From an uncultured Lachnospiraceae bacterium (GTDB taxonomy: Bacteria; Bacillota; Clostridia; Lachnospirales; Lachnospiraceae), in assembly GCA_902802515.1 (NCBI GenBank), contig CADCMM010000003.1, positions 1 through 64,000 on the forward strand: a DNA stretch of 64,000 nucleotides, written 5' to 3'. The translations under genes were made by a program, and so were the position numbers. Within the stretch, counting starts at the first letter, position 1. Each line of letters begins with the position of its first letter. Below the pieces are notes generated by a model that saw only the letters and a program-made list of their open reading frames with translations, had not been told where the DNA came from and searched no databases. Below, piece after piece: positions 763 to 23,948 of the stretch.

Positions 763-3273
763 CTATACCTCCCCTTCATACCCGTCTACCGGATATGGGA
801 AAACCCCTTCCAGATCGGTAGGGGCTTTTGCTGCTTCTTTTTGCACCTGCTCCGGCAGGATCTCCATCTCTGCTGAAACCATTTTTTTCAGTTTCTTTGC
901 TCTTACCTTTTCGTGGAAGTTGGTGTTAAAGAGCTGATACATCAGACTGTCCTTCGGCATCCTCGCATCCATGGGGATATATTTCTCTCCGAACTTTAAA
1001 AGCCCACATCCCGGAAAAGAATTATCCACGTAGGATAAGAGCGTGTCCGAGATGCCCAGAACATTCCCCAGGATTTCCTGCTCTGCCTCATGCTGACACA
1101 GCAGCGCCGTAAAATCACTGTTGTGCAGCATCGTCTGTACGGTTTTGGACGACAGGGCATCCGTGATATCCTGCGTGATGGCAGTGCACAGGCCGCCCTG
1201 CTTTCTAACCTCCCTCCAGATCTTATCCAGATAAGCAGATGAAAACCGGTCTCTGGCCAGGTTATGAAACTCATCGATATAGAGCCTTGTGGAGATCCCT
1301 CGCCGTGAATTGAACACGATCCTGGAACGTATATTTTCCAGCATGATCAGGGTTCCGATCCCGGACTGCTCCTTTCCCAGATTTCCCAGGCCAAACACCA
1401 CGAACCGGTTATTGATATTCACGTTCGTGGGTTTGGCGAACATATCCAGGCCGGTGATCAGGAAGCGCTCCATATTCAGCATCAGGTCGTTCGCCCAGAT
1501 CTCATCCATACCGGAGAGCATGTCATAAAAGTCCCGCAGCGTCGGTGTCTGATATCCTTTCTCATCCATGTGCTCATACAGCTGCATCACGCACCGTGTT
1601 ATGATGGTTTTGTACTCCGACCGGATTTCTCCCTCCAGGATCTGGGAAAAGATCCCGTTCATCAGATCCATCTTGTCAGACAGGAAGTTCCGCTTGTTGT
1701 TCATATACTTCATTGTCTCCGTATCCAGGGGATTGATATAATGCTCCGCCTGTGCCCCGAAATCAATAAACTGGCCACCCAGGTAATCTGCGATCTCCTT
1801 ATACTCATTCTGGGGATCGATAATAATGATCACATCATTGGTTCCAAAGAATACCTGGATCAGCTCCAGCTTGGTATACATGCCCTTGCCGGAACCGGAC
1901 ACGCCCAGAATAAAACCATTCCCGTTTTTTATGAGCTTCCGGTCTCCGAACAGGACATTCTTGGATACCTGATTAATGCCATAGAACACACCACCCTTAT
2001 CACAAAGTTCGCTTACCACAAAAGGTGTAAGCGCGGATAAAGGCTGCGTGAACATGGCACGCATGGCACCTACATGGCGCACCCCGATCGGCAGTGCGGT
2101 ATCGATTGTCTCGATCTGCTCATAGTAAGCCGGAACGAAGGAGAAGCCTTCCCCCTCGGCCACTGTCAGAAACGAAAGCACATCATTTTCCAGCTGCGCT
2201 CTGGAGGAAGCGGATATCACAGCATACAGCCCGACATAAAAGAACTTCTCATTATTCTCGTTCATGATATCCAGGTATCCTTCCAGTTCATCCTTTTCCC
2301 GCCGTTTGTCATAGCTGATATCGCTCGACCAGGCCCAGGCCTTGTTCCGTGTCTCCTGTTGTTTTTCGATCTCACGGCCGTTACGGAGCAGCTGGTTGGA
2401 TACCTTCTTTCTTGCGACATCCTGCGGGATCGCCTCCACATCGATCGTAAGAATGACGTGGTAGGTTCCCCCGGCAAGCTTTTTGACCGTCTCCGGATCA
2501 ATGGCATTTGGCATCTTCGGCAGATACAGGGCACGGACATAGCGCTCATCGATCTGCAGCGTCTGTCCGTCCTTCTCCCCATATTCCCCTTCCGCCTGCC
2601 GCACCATCCGTGGGGCAATATAATCCTTCCAGTCCGCCCTGCGCCGGATCATATCCTCAAAGGTAAAATCAAAATCCGCTTCATGTCCCAGATGATAAAA
2701 CGCATGCAGATATTTCAGCCGCTCCACCGCCGTCAATGGAATAAGGGCGCTGCCAAGGCTCTTAAAGTCCGCTGTCAGGTTCGCTTCGATGCTGCGGAAA
2801 TAATCACGTGCCAGGCGTTCATCCTCCCTTCTGCAGGTGATGACAAAAAGCCGCACCTGCTCAATCCCACCGTTTTTCATGACGGAATTTTCCACATGAT
2901 CATTGATGGAAGCGACGATATCCCGATATCTGGTATCCTTACAGCGAAGGAACAGCTCCTGCCGCATCTTTTCGAGGTCCCGGTTGTTGTTCATGATCAC
3001 AATCTTGAAGGATGCTCCCATGGAGTTTAAGAGCCTGCAGTAGCGCTTGAGTGCTCCCTCTTTTTCATAATCATCCATCGTCGCAAAATTGGCGTCCTCA
3101 AACAGATAGGCTTTGTCGTAGAGCTTCTCCACTCCATCCGGCAGGTCTTCAAGCTGGAACACCCCATCGATCCCGATCTTAAAAACCGGGATCAGCTCCT
3201 GCACCCGCTTCGGGGAAGGATAAAGCTTTCTGGTCAGCACTTTGTAATCGGACATATTCTTTTTTGAAGCCAT
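763..3273 (-). CDS. virB4: VirB4/TraE-type conjugation ATPase
   Basis: An 836-residue ATPase that would power the type IV secretion channel at the inner face of the membrane. The N-terminal half is the VirB4 CagE/TrbE-like region; the C-terminal half has a P-loop GVSGSGKG near residues 457-464 and a Walker B stretch LYIDEFHNL near residue 664. The ATG at 3273 is preferred over a GTG at 3282 because the GGGAGG SD is correctly spaced only for the former. It follows prgI directly and overlaps the end region of that gene. The Ser/Thr that normally follows the P-loop lysine is Gly here. Family assignment is firm. Confidence 0.93.
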   Translation of the reverse strand: MASKKNMSDYKVLTRKLYPSPKRVQELIPVFKIGIDGVFQLEDLPDGVEKLYDKAYLFEDANFATMDDYEKEGALKRYCRLLNSMGASFKIVIMNNNRDLEKMRQELFLRCKDTRYRDIVASINDHVENSVMKNGGIEQVRLFVITCRREDERLARDYFRSIEANLTADFKSLGSALIPLTAVERLKYLHAFYHLGHEADFDFTFEDMIRRRADWKDYIAPRMVRQAEGEYGEKDGQTLQIDERYVRALYLPKMPNAIDPETVKKLAGGTYHVILTIDVEAIPQDVARKKVSNQLLRNGREIEKQQETRNKAWAWSSDISYDKRREKDELEGYLDIMNENNEKFFYVGLYAVISASSRAQLENDVLSFLTVAEGEGFSFVPAYYEQIETIDTALPIGVRHVGAMRAMFTQPLSALTPFVVSELCDKGGVFYGINQVSKNVLFGDRKLIKNGNGFILGVSGSGKGMYTKLELIQVFFGTNDVIIIIDPQNEYKEIADYLGGQFIDFGAQAEHYINPLDTETMKYMNNKRNFLSDKMDLMNGIFSQILEGEIRSEYKTIITRCVMQLYEHMDEKGYQTPTLRDFYDMLSGMDEIWANDLMLNMERFLITGLDMFAKPTNVNINNRFVVFGLGNLGKEQSGIGTLIMLENIRSRIVFNSRRGISTRLYIDEFHNLARDRFSSAYLDKIWREVRKQGGLCTAITQDITDALSSKTVQTMLHNSDFTALLCQHEAEQEILGNVLGISDTLLSYVDNSFPGCGLLKFGEKYIPMDARMPKDSLMYQLFNTNFHEKVRAKKLKKMVSAEMEILPEQVQKEAAKAPTDLEGVFPYPVDGYEGEV

Positions 3274-3275
3274 GT

Positions 3276-3671
3276 TTAACACACCTCCCTTTCCGGATCA
3301 TCCAGCATAAAGGATGGGTTCTTCACCATTTTCTTCACGGAAGAAGGATCTCTTTCCTGACCGCCTGGCAGAAGCACCTCGGGAATGAAATAATACACCT
3401 CCCGGGTAATCGCGCTGCGGCGCTTCTTCAGATACTCCAGCGGCGTCATGCCATGGATCCGTAAAAACCCTGATGCTGCGATCGGCAATACGACCGGAAG
3501 TGCCAGGTAGAAGCTGACCGACTGCTCCAGCTTCAGCACATAACTGGCAAACAAAAAGGTGCCGGTTCCCGCCGCCACCGAAATGATGGAAAGTGCTGTC
3601 TGTTTTAAAGTCAGTCCCTTGAAGAAATCATCCTTATAGCTGTCCAGATCCTTGTTTACCGGTATCTGCAT
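3276..3671 (-). CDS. PrgI family conjugation membrane protein
   Basis: A 131-residue protein beginning MQIPVNKDL, with two hydrophobic segments at about residues 27-45 and 52-70, then a basic cytoplasmic tail containing TPLEYLKKRR. This layout and the position directly upstream of virB4 are typical of PrgI/VirB3-like proteins, which anchor VirB4 at the membrane in Gram-positive conjugation systems. It lies at the start of the VirB4 gene and overlaps the preceding gene's end by 16 bases, so translation is probably coupled. Confidence 0.85.
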   Translation of the reverse strand: MQIPVNKDLDSYKDDFFKGLTLKQTALSIISVAAGTGTFLFASYVLKLEQSVSFYLALPVVLPIAASGFLRIHGMTPLEYLKKRRSAITREVYYFIPEVLLPGGQERDPSSVKKMVKNPSFMLDDPEREVC

Positions 3672-16529: not shown

Positions 16530-16654
16530 ATTGCATATGGGGATACGACCGGATAAACTATAGACAGGGCATGTGAAAAGCAGATACCCAGGTATACAAA
16601 GGGGATGTTTTTGCAAATCCATACCAAAGTTATTATGTGAGGAGGTGTCATTCA

Positions 16655-17398
16655 TTGACAGATGAGAAAAAATATGAAGCGCTGAACGATATCCTTGAGA
16701 AATCCTCCTGCATTGCGTTTCTGGGTGGGGCCGGCGTCTCTACAGAAAGCGGCATACCAGACTTCAGAAGCAAAAACGGACTCTATCATAAGTCAGATAA
16801 AAAGTTCCGGCGCTATCGTCCAGAATATCTGCTCAGCAGTGAATGTCTTCACAGGGAAAGTGAAGTCTTTTTCTCTTATTACCGCAAAAATCTGGATGCC
16901 AGAAAAGCCTGCCCCAACGTTACGCATATCAAACTGGCTGAAATGGAACGTAAGGGCAAACTCGCCGGCATTGTTACACAGAACATTGATGGTCTTCATC
17001 AGATCGCCGGAAGTAAAACCGTTCACGAGATCCACGGCACCGTCCGCAGAAACTATTGCGTCTCATGCGGCAAAGAATATGATGAGAACTACATCTTCGA
17101 CAGCACAGATCCTGTTCCCAAATGTACATCATGTGGAAAGATGGTACGTCCTGATGTGACTCTGTACGGAGAGATCCTGCCCAGCCCTGCCTATGAGAAT
17201 GCAGTGGATTTAATGAACAGAGCTGATTGCCTGATAATCGGAGGAACCTCTTTACAGGTGGGTTCCGCCGCGCAGATGGCACATCTGTTTCATGGGGATC
17301 ATCTCATTATTGTGAATAAAGGGAAGACTCGCATGGAAGGCAAGGCTGAGCTTGTCTTCCATGAAAGTATTGGATTTGTTTTTGATCAGATCTGGTGA
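16655..17398 (+). CDS. Sir2-family NAD-dependent protein deacylase
   Basis: 247 residues from a TTG start placed seven bases after GAGGAGGTG; an upstream in-frame GTG at 16637 overlaps that SD. Seen: the NAD-binding GAGVSTESGIPDFRS (from about residue 25), TQNIDGLH (about 108), catalytic His127 in HGT, zinc cysteines 135, 138, 157 and 160, and GTSLQV. It should remove acyl groups from lysines using NAD+, releasing nicotinamide. It stands alone on the plus strand inside an otherwise minus-strand element, so it is probably cargo with its own promoter. A role in defence or host regulation is possible but unproven. Confidence 0.92.
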   Translation: MTDEKKYEALNDILEKSSCIAFLGGAGVSTESGIPDFRSKNGLYHKSDKKFRRYRPEYLLSSECLHRESEVFFSYYRKNLDARKACPNVTHIKLAEMERKGKLAGIVTQNIDGLHQIAGSKTVHEIHGTVRRNYCVSCGKEYDENYIFDSTDPVPKCTSCGKMVRPDVTLYGEILPSPAYENAVDLMNRADCLIIGGTSLQVGSAAQMAHLFHGDHLIIVNKGKTRMEGKAELVFHESIGFVFDQIW

Positions 17399-17424: not shown

Positions 17425-17829
17425 TTACAGAGACTGCAGAATATTTGAGACCATATCTATCGCCCGGTCTACCTGTTCCTGAGCATTGCGGATCTTTGAC
17501 TGTACCAGATAATCTGCAACGAAGCCGTCAAAAAAGAAATCCGCAAATGTCAGGAAATCGCCTATCTCGATCCGGAGACCATCTATGGACTGTACATCCC
17601 GCAGCTCTCTCTGAAATACCTGAAGATCCGCCTTTGCCTGTTCAAGGCTGCGGGAGGCGTCCCGGACTTTCGCATGCTTGAGAAGTCCGGATAACCCGCC
17701 CCCGCCAAACAGATCAATGATACCCCAGTTCCTTGCACTTCTCAGATAATTCCTTGCATCCTGCAGGCTTGCCAGTGCCCTCTGGCCGGCCAGCCTTGCT
17801 TCTCTTTTCTCTTTTTCTTCATTATACAT
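17425..17829 (-). CDS. Unrecognised helical protein, third gene of the riboswitch operon
   Basis: 134 residues from an ATG preceded by GGGGGTGG; the open frame extends to 17934 without a second SD. The sequence is mainly helical with a glycine-rich stretch DLFGGGGLSGLL near residue 38 and long polar helices on both sides. It is convergent with sir2 and follows the DUF6440-like gene. I do not recognise its function. Confidence 0.65.
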   Translation of the reverse strand: MYNEEKEKREARLAGQRALASLQDARNYLRSARNWGIIDLFGGGGLSGLLKHAKVRDASRSLEQAKADLQVFQRELRDVQSIDGLRIEIGDFLTFADFFFDGFVADYLVQSKIRNAQEQVDRAIDMVSNILQSL

Positions 17830-17858: not shown

Positions 17859-18044
17859 TTACAAAACTGTAACGACCGGCTTCCCGGAATGATCCAGCAG
17901 CGGTGTAATACCACCTGCATATCCGCTTTTCCAAACCAGGTATGTCACTCCAGTCTCCTTATCAACCATGATCTTCTTCTGTCCATTATCCGACAGGCTG
18001 GTTCCTTCGGTATAAATGACTTCAAATCTGTTTTCTTTTCTCAT
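17859..18044 (-). CDS. DUF6440-like small protein
   Basis: 61 residues from the ATG at 18044, with a GAGGAGG SD. The sequence (RFEVIYTEGTSL, VDKETGVTYLVWKSGYAGGITPLLD) matches my memory of DUF6440, a small beta-rich family common in Firmicutes. It is the second gene behind the riboswitch. No function is known. Confidence 0.7.
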   Translation of the reverse strand: MRKENRFEVIYTEGTSLSDNGQKKIMVDKETGVTYLVWKSGYAGGITPLLDHSGKPVVTVL

Positions 18045-18057
18045 TCTACATTCCTCC

Positions 18058-18279
18058 TCACAATCTGCTGAAGAAACCTCTGAAGAACGGTACAATCACT
18101 TTACTGAAGATTGCCACCAGGATAATAACCGGAAGCAATCCGAAACCGATCCGAAGGATCAGTCCCATAGCCCAGAAGAAAGCCAGGAAACCGAATATCT
18201 TTCCGATCGCACGGTTGGCCTCGCGGCCTCCAAAGAATACAGAAACTAAAATCCAGAATACAAACAGATTCACCAACAT
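18058..18279 (-). CDS. Small membrane protein, first gene behind the Mn-type riboswitch
   Basis: 73 residues, two long hydrophobic segments (about 2-18 and 28-58) separated by a basic GGREANRAIGK loop, ending in FFSRL. The SD GGAGAG and ATG follow the riboswitch terminator by about 20 bases, so its expression is the direct output of the switch. It does not resemble MntP, TerC-type or P-type Mn exporters, the usual genes behind this RNA. Role in metal handling is an inference from the RNA alone. Confidence 0.7.
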   Translation of the reverse strand: MLVNLFVFWILVSVFFGGREANRAIGKIFGFLAFFWAMGLILRIGFGLLPVIILVAIFSKVIVPFFRGFFSRL

Positions 18280-18300
18280 CGTTCATCTCTCCTTTGCATT

Positions 18301-18437
18301 AAAAAAAGACCTTTATCATGACTACTGCTGCCACAATAAAAGTCTCGCTCTTGATAACCCTTACCGGATGCTCATTGCATCGTGATGACGGTTGCAGGTC
18401 CACCAACTGGTGGTTTGCTACTCCCTTGTTATTGATT
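18301..18437 (-). ncRNA. yybP-ykoY family (Mn2+-sensing) riboswitch with terminator
   Basis: Read on the minus strand, the leader has the family's hallmark elements in order: GGGAGTAGC, a P2 hairpin, CCGTCATCACGATGC closed by GCATCCGG, then GAGCGAGACTTT. The outer stem pairs AATAA(c)AAG (18425-18433) with CTTTTATT. The 3' strand of that stem is shared with a 10-bp terminator hairpin (18301-18345: AGACTTTTAT/ATAAAGGTCT) followed by seven T. So ligand binding should block the terminator and turn the operon on. The promoter lies immediately upstream. Recognised from the known consensus; not run against Rfam. Confidence 0.82.
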
Positions 18438-18443
18438 GATAAT

Positions 18444-18472
18444 TATTTATCACATTCCTGTGTTTTTGTCAA
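18444..18472 (-). promoter_or_regulatory. Promoter of the riboswitch operon
   Basis: A perfect TTGACA (18467-18472) and TAAATA (18444-18449) with a 17-base spacer on the minus strand. Transcription would begin at about 18437, right at the 5' end of the aptamer. Confidence 0.82.
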
Positions 18473-18646
18473 TATCTTTTTTTCAAATCATACTTTTTTC
18501 TGAGGTATAGGAAGGGCCTTGCCATATTTTCATGACAAGACCCATTGCAAGGTATCCATCGCCGTCACCGGCGTTTCTATCACGCACATCGGATATCATC
18601 TCCTCCGCACTCGCTTAGCTGCCACAGCAGCTGATCATCAAACAAA

Positions 18647-19096
18647 TTATCCTTCAATCATAATTGTCTTCTTTTCCGGCACCTGTGGCGCTTCCTTCTT
18701 AGGAATCTGCAGGCTCAGAACACCATGCTTGAAACCAGCCTTGATGTCTTCCTCTGTCAGGTTTTCTCCTACATAGAAGCTTCTCTGCATTGCACCGGCG
18801 TAACGCTCCTGACGGATCAGTTTGCCTTTCTTGTCATTCTCGTCCTTGTCCAGGCCTTTCGCAGCGCTGACAGTCAGATAACCGTTGTTTAGTTCAATCG
18901 TGATCTCGTCTTTCTTGAAGCCCGGCAGATCAATATCTACTTCGTAGTGGTCATCATGCTCATGCACGTCCGTCTTCATCAGCCGGTCTGCATGTCTTCC
19001 GTAAAGCTTCCGTTCGGTTCTGTCCAGATCTCTGAAATCCGGAAAATCAAACCAGTCATCAAACAAATTCTCTCTGAAAAAACTCGGCATCAACAT
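18647..19096 (-). CDS. Hsp20/alpha-crystallin small heat-shock protein
   Basis: 149 residues from the ATG with SD AAAGGAGG at 19096. The alpha-crystallin domain spans about residues 45-140 (DVHEHDDHYEVDIDLPGFKK, ITIELNNGYLTVSA) and ends with the GVLSLQIPKKE motif; an IxI-like MIEG tail follows. It should hold unfolding proteins in the cytoplasm in an ATP-independent way. It is monocistronic behind a heat-shock type promoter with a CIRCE-like operator. The 18480-18646 gap downstream holds a hairpin (about 18507-18537) that probably terminates it. Confidence 0.93.
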   Translation of the reverse strand: MLMPSFFRENLFDDWFDFPDFRDLDRTERKLYGRHADRLMKTDVHEHDDHYEVDIDLPGFKKDEITIELNNGYLTVSAAKGLDKDENDKKGKLIRQERYAGAMQRSFYVGENLTEEDIKAGFKHGVLSLQIPKKEAPQVPEKKTIMIEG

Positions 19097-19213
19097 AATC
19101 AATTCCTCCTTTAACTCAATCTTCTGTATCAGCTTCATGAGCATTGGGACGGAGGGTTTGGATCGGTGAGCCTTTCGCTTTCCTGATCTTCTTCGTTCCT
19201 TTGTTCTGACTAT

Positions 19214-23870: not shown

Positions 23871-23874
23871 CTCG

Positions 23875-23948
23875 CGTCGCTAAGAGGATTTGAACCTCCG
23901 GCCTACCGCTTAGGAGGCGGTCGCTCTATCCAGCTGAGCTATAGCGAC
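23875..23948 (-). tRNA. tRNA-Arg (anticodon CCU)
   Basis: The minus strand folds into a complete cloverleaf: acceptor GTCGCTA/TAGCGAC, D-arm GCTCAGCTGGATAGAGC, anticodon arm ACCGC-CTCCTAA-GCGGT with anticodon CCT, T-arm GGAGG-TTCAAAT-CCTCT and discriminator G. CCA is not encoded. It reads AGG codons. Its 3' end faces the ICE, consistent with use as the integration target. Confidence 0.93.

Follow-up and report, generated by a model that had tools for sequence, protein, structure and literature searches.

The window analyzed here is a stretch of 64,000 nucleotides from an uncultured Lachnospiraceae bacterium of the rumen. Its minus strand carries, at positions 18438-18299, a yybP-ykoY (Mn2+) riboswitch together with a terminator that uses the P1.1 strand of the riboswitch, and three small genes follow (Table 1). 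The first gene encodes a 73-aa membrane protein for which a Pfam search returned no family and no transporter match, and which possesses only one acidic residue. The second encodes a DUF6440 protein and the third a protein of 134 aa. For the 134-aa protein, no credible match was found in Pfam and NCBIfam, and no relatives were found in IMG/VR. AlphaFold2 predicted an all-helical bundle with a mean pLDDT of 77, and sequence and fold searches of the PDB gave nothing at E < 0.001, only generic helical bundles. Several D, E, and H positions are conserved in the 134-aa family. The products are not known Mn exporters, as the first-pass annotation of this DNA had stated. Just upstream of the operon lies an Hsp20 gene (18650-19099, minus strand), and a sirtuin-like gene, identified by eye, is convergent to the operon (16637-17398, plus strand).

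Table 1. Features of the riboswitch and its operon in the window.
Feature	Position	Strand	Basis
Promoter: -35 TTGACA (18471-18466), 17-nt spacer, TGn, -10 TAAATA; overlapped by an inverted repeat	18443..18471	-	Sequence reading
Mn2+ (yybP-ykoY) riboswitch aptamer: P1.1, L1, P2, P3.1, L3, P3.2, without P4	18331..18438	-	R1 match, covariation, 24/28 pairs kept
Equivalent of the Mn2+-contacting A41 (L. lactis)/A48 (X. oryzae) in L3	18386..18386	-	Position computed; role from PMC6754395, PMC9190785
Intrinsic terminator: 17-bp stem, U7 tail, -18.5 kcal/mol	18299..18346	-	Terminator scan, folding
Gene 1: 73-aa hydrophobic membrane protein (EANR ... PFxxGFxSR)	18058..18279	-	Hydropathy, family alignment
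Gene 2: DUF6440 protein, 61 aa	17859..18044	-	PF20037, 81 bits
Gene 3: 134-aa predicted helical-bundle protein of an unnamed family (SAxNWGIxDLFGGG..KHSK..FQRELKD..FADFFFDG)	17425..17829	-	AlphaFold2 model

The operon is part of a conjugative element (ICE), in agreement with the first-pass annotation. A P-loop conjugation ATPase similar to TraG/VirB4 (PF19044) is encoded at 763-3279, and further element genes that encode RepA_N/DUF6017, ParA, and a sortase flank the riboswitch region. The gene for tRNA-Arg(CCT) at 23874-23948 is near the element boundary, and on the left the element runs past the contig end. At least 16.3 kb of the element was 99.97% identical to the corresponding DNA of another species in the genus (MAG RUG12359, G210), whereas the adjacent core DNA of the same two species was only 88% and 75% identical. 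Thus, the element was transferred recently. Plasmid sequences searched with the operon at the nucleotide level gave no match.

At the gathering thresholds of Rfam, a tRNA was the only match in the whole window. With permissive settings, the yybP-ykoY model RF00080 found nothing in 18000-18700 up to E = 10, and the positive controls were under-scored as well. RF00080, whose gathering score is 45 bits, did not detect P-type ATPase and Na/Ca exchanger leaders from this bacterial family and remained below 45 bits on the leader of a MntP gene of the window genus (24 bits), on TerC leaders (25–31 bits), and on ATPase leaders (37–39 bits). It scored 105 bits on the leader of a UPF0016-like gene. Under-scoring by RF00080 was also seen for many Bacillota members of the class. 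The first-pass annotation had held that a covariance score below threshold would count against the riboswitch. No RF00080 score was obtained in the window, but this silence says little, because the model misses or under-scores the leaders of Mn exporters.

Given the failure of the Rfam positive controls, a separate covariance model, R1, was built without the window RNA. Its 32 member RNAs precede cation exchanger, P-type ATPase, SPFH-type, and other non-target genes; RNAs located upstream of 134-aa or 73-aa genes were all excluded as well. R1 matched the window RNA over its full length (18438-18331) with 49.6 bits and an E-value of 1.8e-8 in 493 kb. Except for one marginal match (E = 1), the R1 matches in these 493 kb were directly upstream of target genes or were other known RNAs of these genomes. 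Moreover, R1 found RNAs ahead of MntP (PF02659), TerC (PF03741), and P-type ATPase genes, and it coincided with RF00080 on RNAs ahead of TerC (L203 and L210), P-type ATPase (L184 and L275), and same-genus MntP genes (L244). In addition, a hand pattern of three conserved blocks, GGGAGTAGC-CGTCA-GMRAGAC, was present in 41 of 200 genomes of the bacterial family, and the reversed-pattern control gave 0. The UPF0016-like leader was found by this pattern only, not by R1.

The only meaningful Rfam match under permissive settings in 18000-18700 was to RF02617 (SSRC10), which covered the full length of the leader including the terminator (18430-18301) with 23.1 bits and E = 0.055 in 701 bases (gathering score, 56). 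SSRC10 is annotated as a small RNA of Streptococcus pyogenes, not as a riboswitch. There its mapping showed a terminated transcript, located ahead of a gene for a "putative calcium transporter" (PMC3675131). SSRC10 also matched the TerC leader L203, which is matched by RF00080 too. Given this shared leader and the location ahead of a calcium-transporter gene, the reading of the leader as a member of a separate sRNA family was dropped. RF02617 most plausibly represents the terminated leader of a streptococcal Mn2+ riboswitch and seems to be misfiled as a small RNA.

Similar to the yybP-ykoY RNAs of RF00080, the window RNA possesses P1.1, P1.2, P2, P3.1, and P3.2, the L1 internal loop, an L3 with the sequence CGUCA and the Mn2+-sensing adenosine, and a terminator overlapping P1.1, and its class-mates are found ahead of MntP, TerC, UPF0016-like, and P-type ATPase genes. 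L1 is formed by GGGAGUAGC at 18425-18417 and GCGAGAC at 18348-18342, in accordance with the class form GGGAGUAGC/GCRAGAC, and L3 is present as CGUCAUCAC with its adenosine at 18386. The strands of P1.1 are CAAUAA-c-AAG and CUUUUAUUG. In L. lactis and X. oryzae, the N7 of the invariable L3 adenosine (A41/A48) contacts Mn2+ (PMC6754395). L1, L3, and the discriminator adenosine were invariant across the RNAs of the model set. For P1.1, P1.2, P2, P3.1, and P3.2 of 93 aligned RNAs, the covariation score was 0.572, compared with 0.192 ± 0.008 for shuffles and ≤0.12 for slid structures. Double-sided changes were found at 26 of 28 pairs and 88.1% of cells were paired, counts that lean towards the tested structure to which this alignment was fitted; the double changes in P1.1 and P1.2 were visible beforehand in an unfitted MAFFT alignment. 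The window RNA itself retains 24 of the 28 model pairs, and the non-standard ones are two of the four pairs of P1.2 and two of the five outer pairs of P3.1. Different from the RNAs listed under RF00080, the window RNA scores too low for listing and has a short linker instead of P4. A clear P4 is also missing from the SSRC10 consensus and from the MntP leaders of the window genus, and P4 was therefore not treated as defining. The R1 match, the covariation, and the intact L1 and L3 all bear out the earlier assignment of this minus-strand RNA to the Mn2+-type yybP-ykoY class.

The 5' arm of the terminator, GACUUUUAUUG, is identical to the 3' strand of P1.1, confirming the earlier remark that the terminator shares a P1 strand. 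Since GACUUUUAUUG is common to both, the P1.1 and terminator folds are mutually exclusive. The L. lactis Mn2+ riboswitch (4Y1I) has a similarly overlapping terminator, against which P1.1 is stabilized by Mn2+ (PMC11087558), although the L. lactis RNA possesses P4, a four-way junction, and more G-C pairs in P1.1. By analogy to this switch, an ON switch is expected in the window leader. The transcriptional ON architecture is supported, and the direction of switching and the binding of Mn2+ by the window RNA would be those of its class. Without Mn2+, the terminator would take the 3' strand of P1.1 and transcription would end at about 18300. With Mn2+ bound between L1 and L3 and contacting A18386 via N7, P1.1 would be held, the terminator would be blocked, and the 73-aa, DUF6440, and 134-aa genes would be transcribed.

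The promoter of the leader was described as perfect in the first-pass annotation. Its -35 element is indeed exact and a TGn extension is present, but the -10 element TAAATA agrees with the consensus at only 3 of 6 positions and is weak, and a consensus promoter scan did not list this promoter. The expected transcription start is close to the 5' end of P1.1. An inverted repeat, TGATAA-N4-TTATCA, spans the -10 element (18437-18452); it is exact in the window and L026 and near-exact in L034, L035, and L295. A second, protein-based control by a Fur- or MntR-like regulator is possible at this repeat.

The 73-aa protein is rare. Four divergent loci were found, which are the window (identical in G210:C17), L034, L035, and L295, and an RNA of this class heads all four of them. 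Two of the three non-window loci belong to the same genus and one to another genus. In L034 and L295 (L295:474-1413), the gene after the 73-aa gene encodes a further small membrane protein (about 75 aa), and the L295 operon, from the other genus, also encodes YbjQ (PF01906), which is described in Pfam as "putative heavy-metal-binding". Matches to the 73-aa protein in IMG/VR (L037-L040, 44–52% over 25–33 residues) were judged spurious in the absence of the RNA motif, and L296, a weak partial match in another genome (E = 8.6e-4), was left out of the count since the RNA is absent there. The -35 element, TGATA..TTRTCA, and CAAYCAATA were kept in all four 73-aa loci, and the terminator arms were the same. 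These observations bear on whether the ICE merely copied a chromosomal leader with its operon, so that the switch is dead and the genes are constitutive or silent. The weak -10 element and the four non-standard pairs of the aptamer would fit a degenerate passenger of this kind. However, the aptamer core, the terminator, and the overlap of P1.1 with the terminator are intact and were kept across the four divergent loci, which makes a dead switch very improbable.

Target genes of the RNA class were identified by Pfam on representatives and by eye for the rest. Those of the transport type included P-type ATPases, Na/Ca exchangers, MntP, TerC, a UPF0016-like gene, and a Na+-pump beta subunit. The L. 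lactis Mn2+ riboswitch controls the P-type ATPase gene yoaB. A second set of targets consisted of the membrane-quality genes for SPFH/flotillin, PspA, HtpX-type M48 protease, LemA, and YccF. In L209, L207, L197, L002, and L042, Mn2+-class RNAs immediately precede genes for PspA, HtpX-type M48 peptidase, LemA, and SPFH/flotillin. The window genome contained four R1 RNAs, of which one is the ICE copy, one is ahead of an SPFH gene, and the other two are ahead of genes that by eye resemble those for a Na/Ca exchanger and an adenylate-forming enzyme. Many neighbors are Na+/Ca2+ exchangers, Na+-pump subunits, or ArsB/NhaD-like permeases, with Na_Ca_ex and OAD_beta being frequent targets, as might be expected if this copy or its subtype had kept the fold and sensed another ion or condition, such as Ca2+, Na+, or pH. 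Such a change of ligand is nevertheless improbable, given the invariance of L1, L3, and the discriminator adenosine in the model set and the presence of the class ahead of MntP in the window genus and of TerC and UPF0016-like genes elsewhere.

Members of the 134-aa family were identified in 88 of 299 genomes sampled from the bacterial family. At 22 of the 89 non-window 134-aa loci, including loci of other genera, an R1 RNA was located on the same strand 60–180 nt upstream; the seed alignment was made from RNA-linked members, which may have biased this fraction but not the link itself. Chance adjacency within 200 nt was estimated to be well below 0.1% per locus, as there are one to four RNAs per 3-Mb genome. 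The gene next to the 134-aa gene was yccF (PF03733), which encodes an inner-membrane protein, in 18 of the 22 RNA-linked loci (L089-L095, L097-L102, L104-L106, L114, L115, L117, L126, L141, and L143), compared with any yccF match in 2 of the 67 unlinked loci. The usual operon is RNA–134-aa–yccF, which occurs in many Lachnospiraceae genera. Different from this arrangement, the window operon lacks yccF and has the 73-aa protein and DUF6440 in its place. The remaining 67 of the 89 loci lack the RNA, nearly all of them also lacking yccF, and the 134-aa protein is therefore not exclusively a Mn2+ target. In the tree of the 134-aa family, most forks of which are unresolved, RNA linkage was patchy (up to 12 changes). 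Versions of about 300–370 aa (L142, L146, L149, and 19 others) formed a largely separate group without the RNA. On a fecal scaffold deposited as phage (L294, MT836322.1), a 134-aa relative was also preceded by a Mn2+-type RNA, which scored 34 bits. The first-pass annotation had proposed to look for the RNA ahead of the three-gene set elsewhere and would have taken a lack of co-occurrence as a refutation. Co-occurrence was found for the 134-aa gene and, at all three other divergent loci, for the 73-aa gene. None was found for DUF6440, which was rejected as a target of the switch, since the RNA was found at 0 of 10 DUF6440 loci elsewhere.

The TerC proteins of Bacillus subtilis are FtsH-dependent and copurify with flotillins, HtpX, and FtsH itself (PMC10550928). 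Given this copurification and the membrane-quality genes among the targets of the RNA class, membrane maintenance under Mn2+ is the most economical role for the 134-aa protein, YccF, and the 73-aa protein. In this picture, the helical 134-aa protein would act in the cytoplasm as the partner of a small membrane protein. That membrane protein would be YccF in most of the chromosomal copies linked to the RNA, and in the ICE copy it would be the 73-aa protein. The function of YccF was not described in the papers found, nor were the target genes in the window described as Mn2+ targets in the literature found. Alternatively, the switch may be a true Mn2+ switch whose operon handles Mn2+ directly, in which case the 73-aa protein or YccF would be a small exporter or a subunit of one, and the 134-aa bundle would serve to buffer or chaperone Mn2+. 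Exporters and pumps make up most of the known targets of the class, both the 73-aa protein and YccF are membrane proteins, YbjQ is encoded in the 73-aa operon of another genus, and the 134-aa family has its conserved D/E/H positions, all of which accord with direct handling. A single acidic residue and the lack of a transporter match in the 73-aa protein argue against it, however, as do a match of one 73-aa relative to EI24/CysZ that was far under the cut-off and the lack of a significant fold match for the 134-aa model. We regard direct handling as rather unlikely.

Our preferred reading remains membrane maintenance. It is likely that the three-gene operon on the conjugative element is under the control of a yybP-ykoY transcriptional ON riboswitch that responds to Mn2+. 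More tentatively, and at slightly less than even odds, the company of these genes suggests that the products could belong to a response that maintains the membrane under Mn2+ excess, rather than forming a transporter. The idea of a metal-handling or stress system of a mobile element, put forward in the first-pass annotation, has to be revised accordingly, in that the gene set is not specific to the ICE and its company suggests membrane maintenance rather than a transporter or chelator. A further and more speculative possibility is that the 134-aa family and YccF, together with the mobile 73-aa variant, constitute an undescribed system, widespread in Lachnospiraceae, that is induced by Mn2+ and protects the membrane. 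The ICE might then spread a version of it that carries its own regulation and makes recipients tolerant of Mn2+ or of the membrane damage that occurs under Mn2+.

The riboswitch itself is of a known kind that was missed by Rfam. What is new is its target set, above all the RNA–134-aa–yccF operon and its mobile relative on the ICE. Because the current Rfam model misses members from Lachnospiraceae, the Mn2+ riboswitch class is under-annotated in a major family of gut and rumen bacteria. Once visible, the Lachnospiraceae RNAs tie the 134-aa protein, the 73-aa protein, and YccF to Mn2+, beside the SPFH, PspA, HtpX, and LemA genes. What YccF does, and how Mn2+ is linked to membrane quality control, thereby become directly testable questions, and the window provides an example of a metal-sensing switch that travels with a conjugative element.
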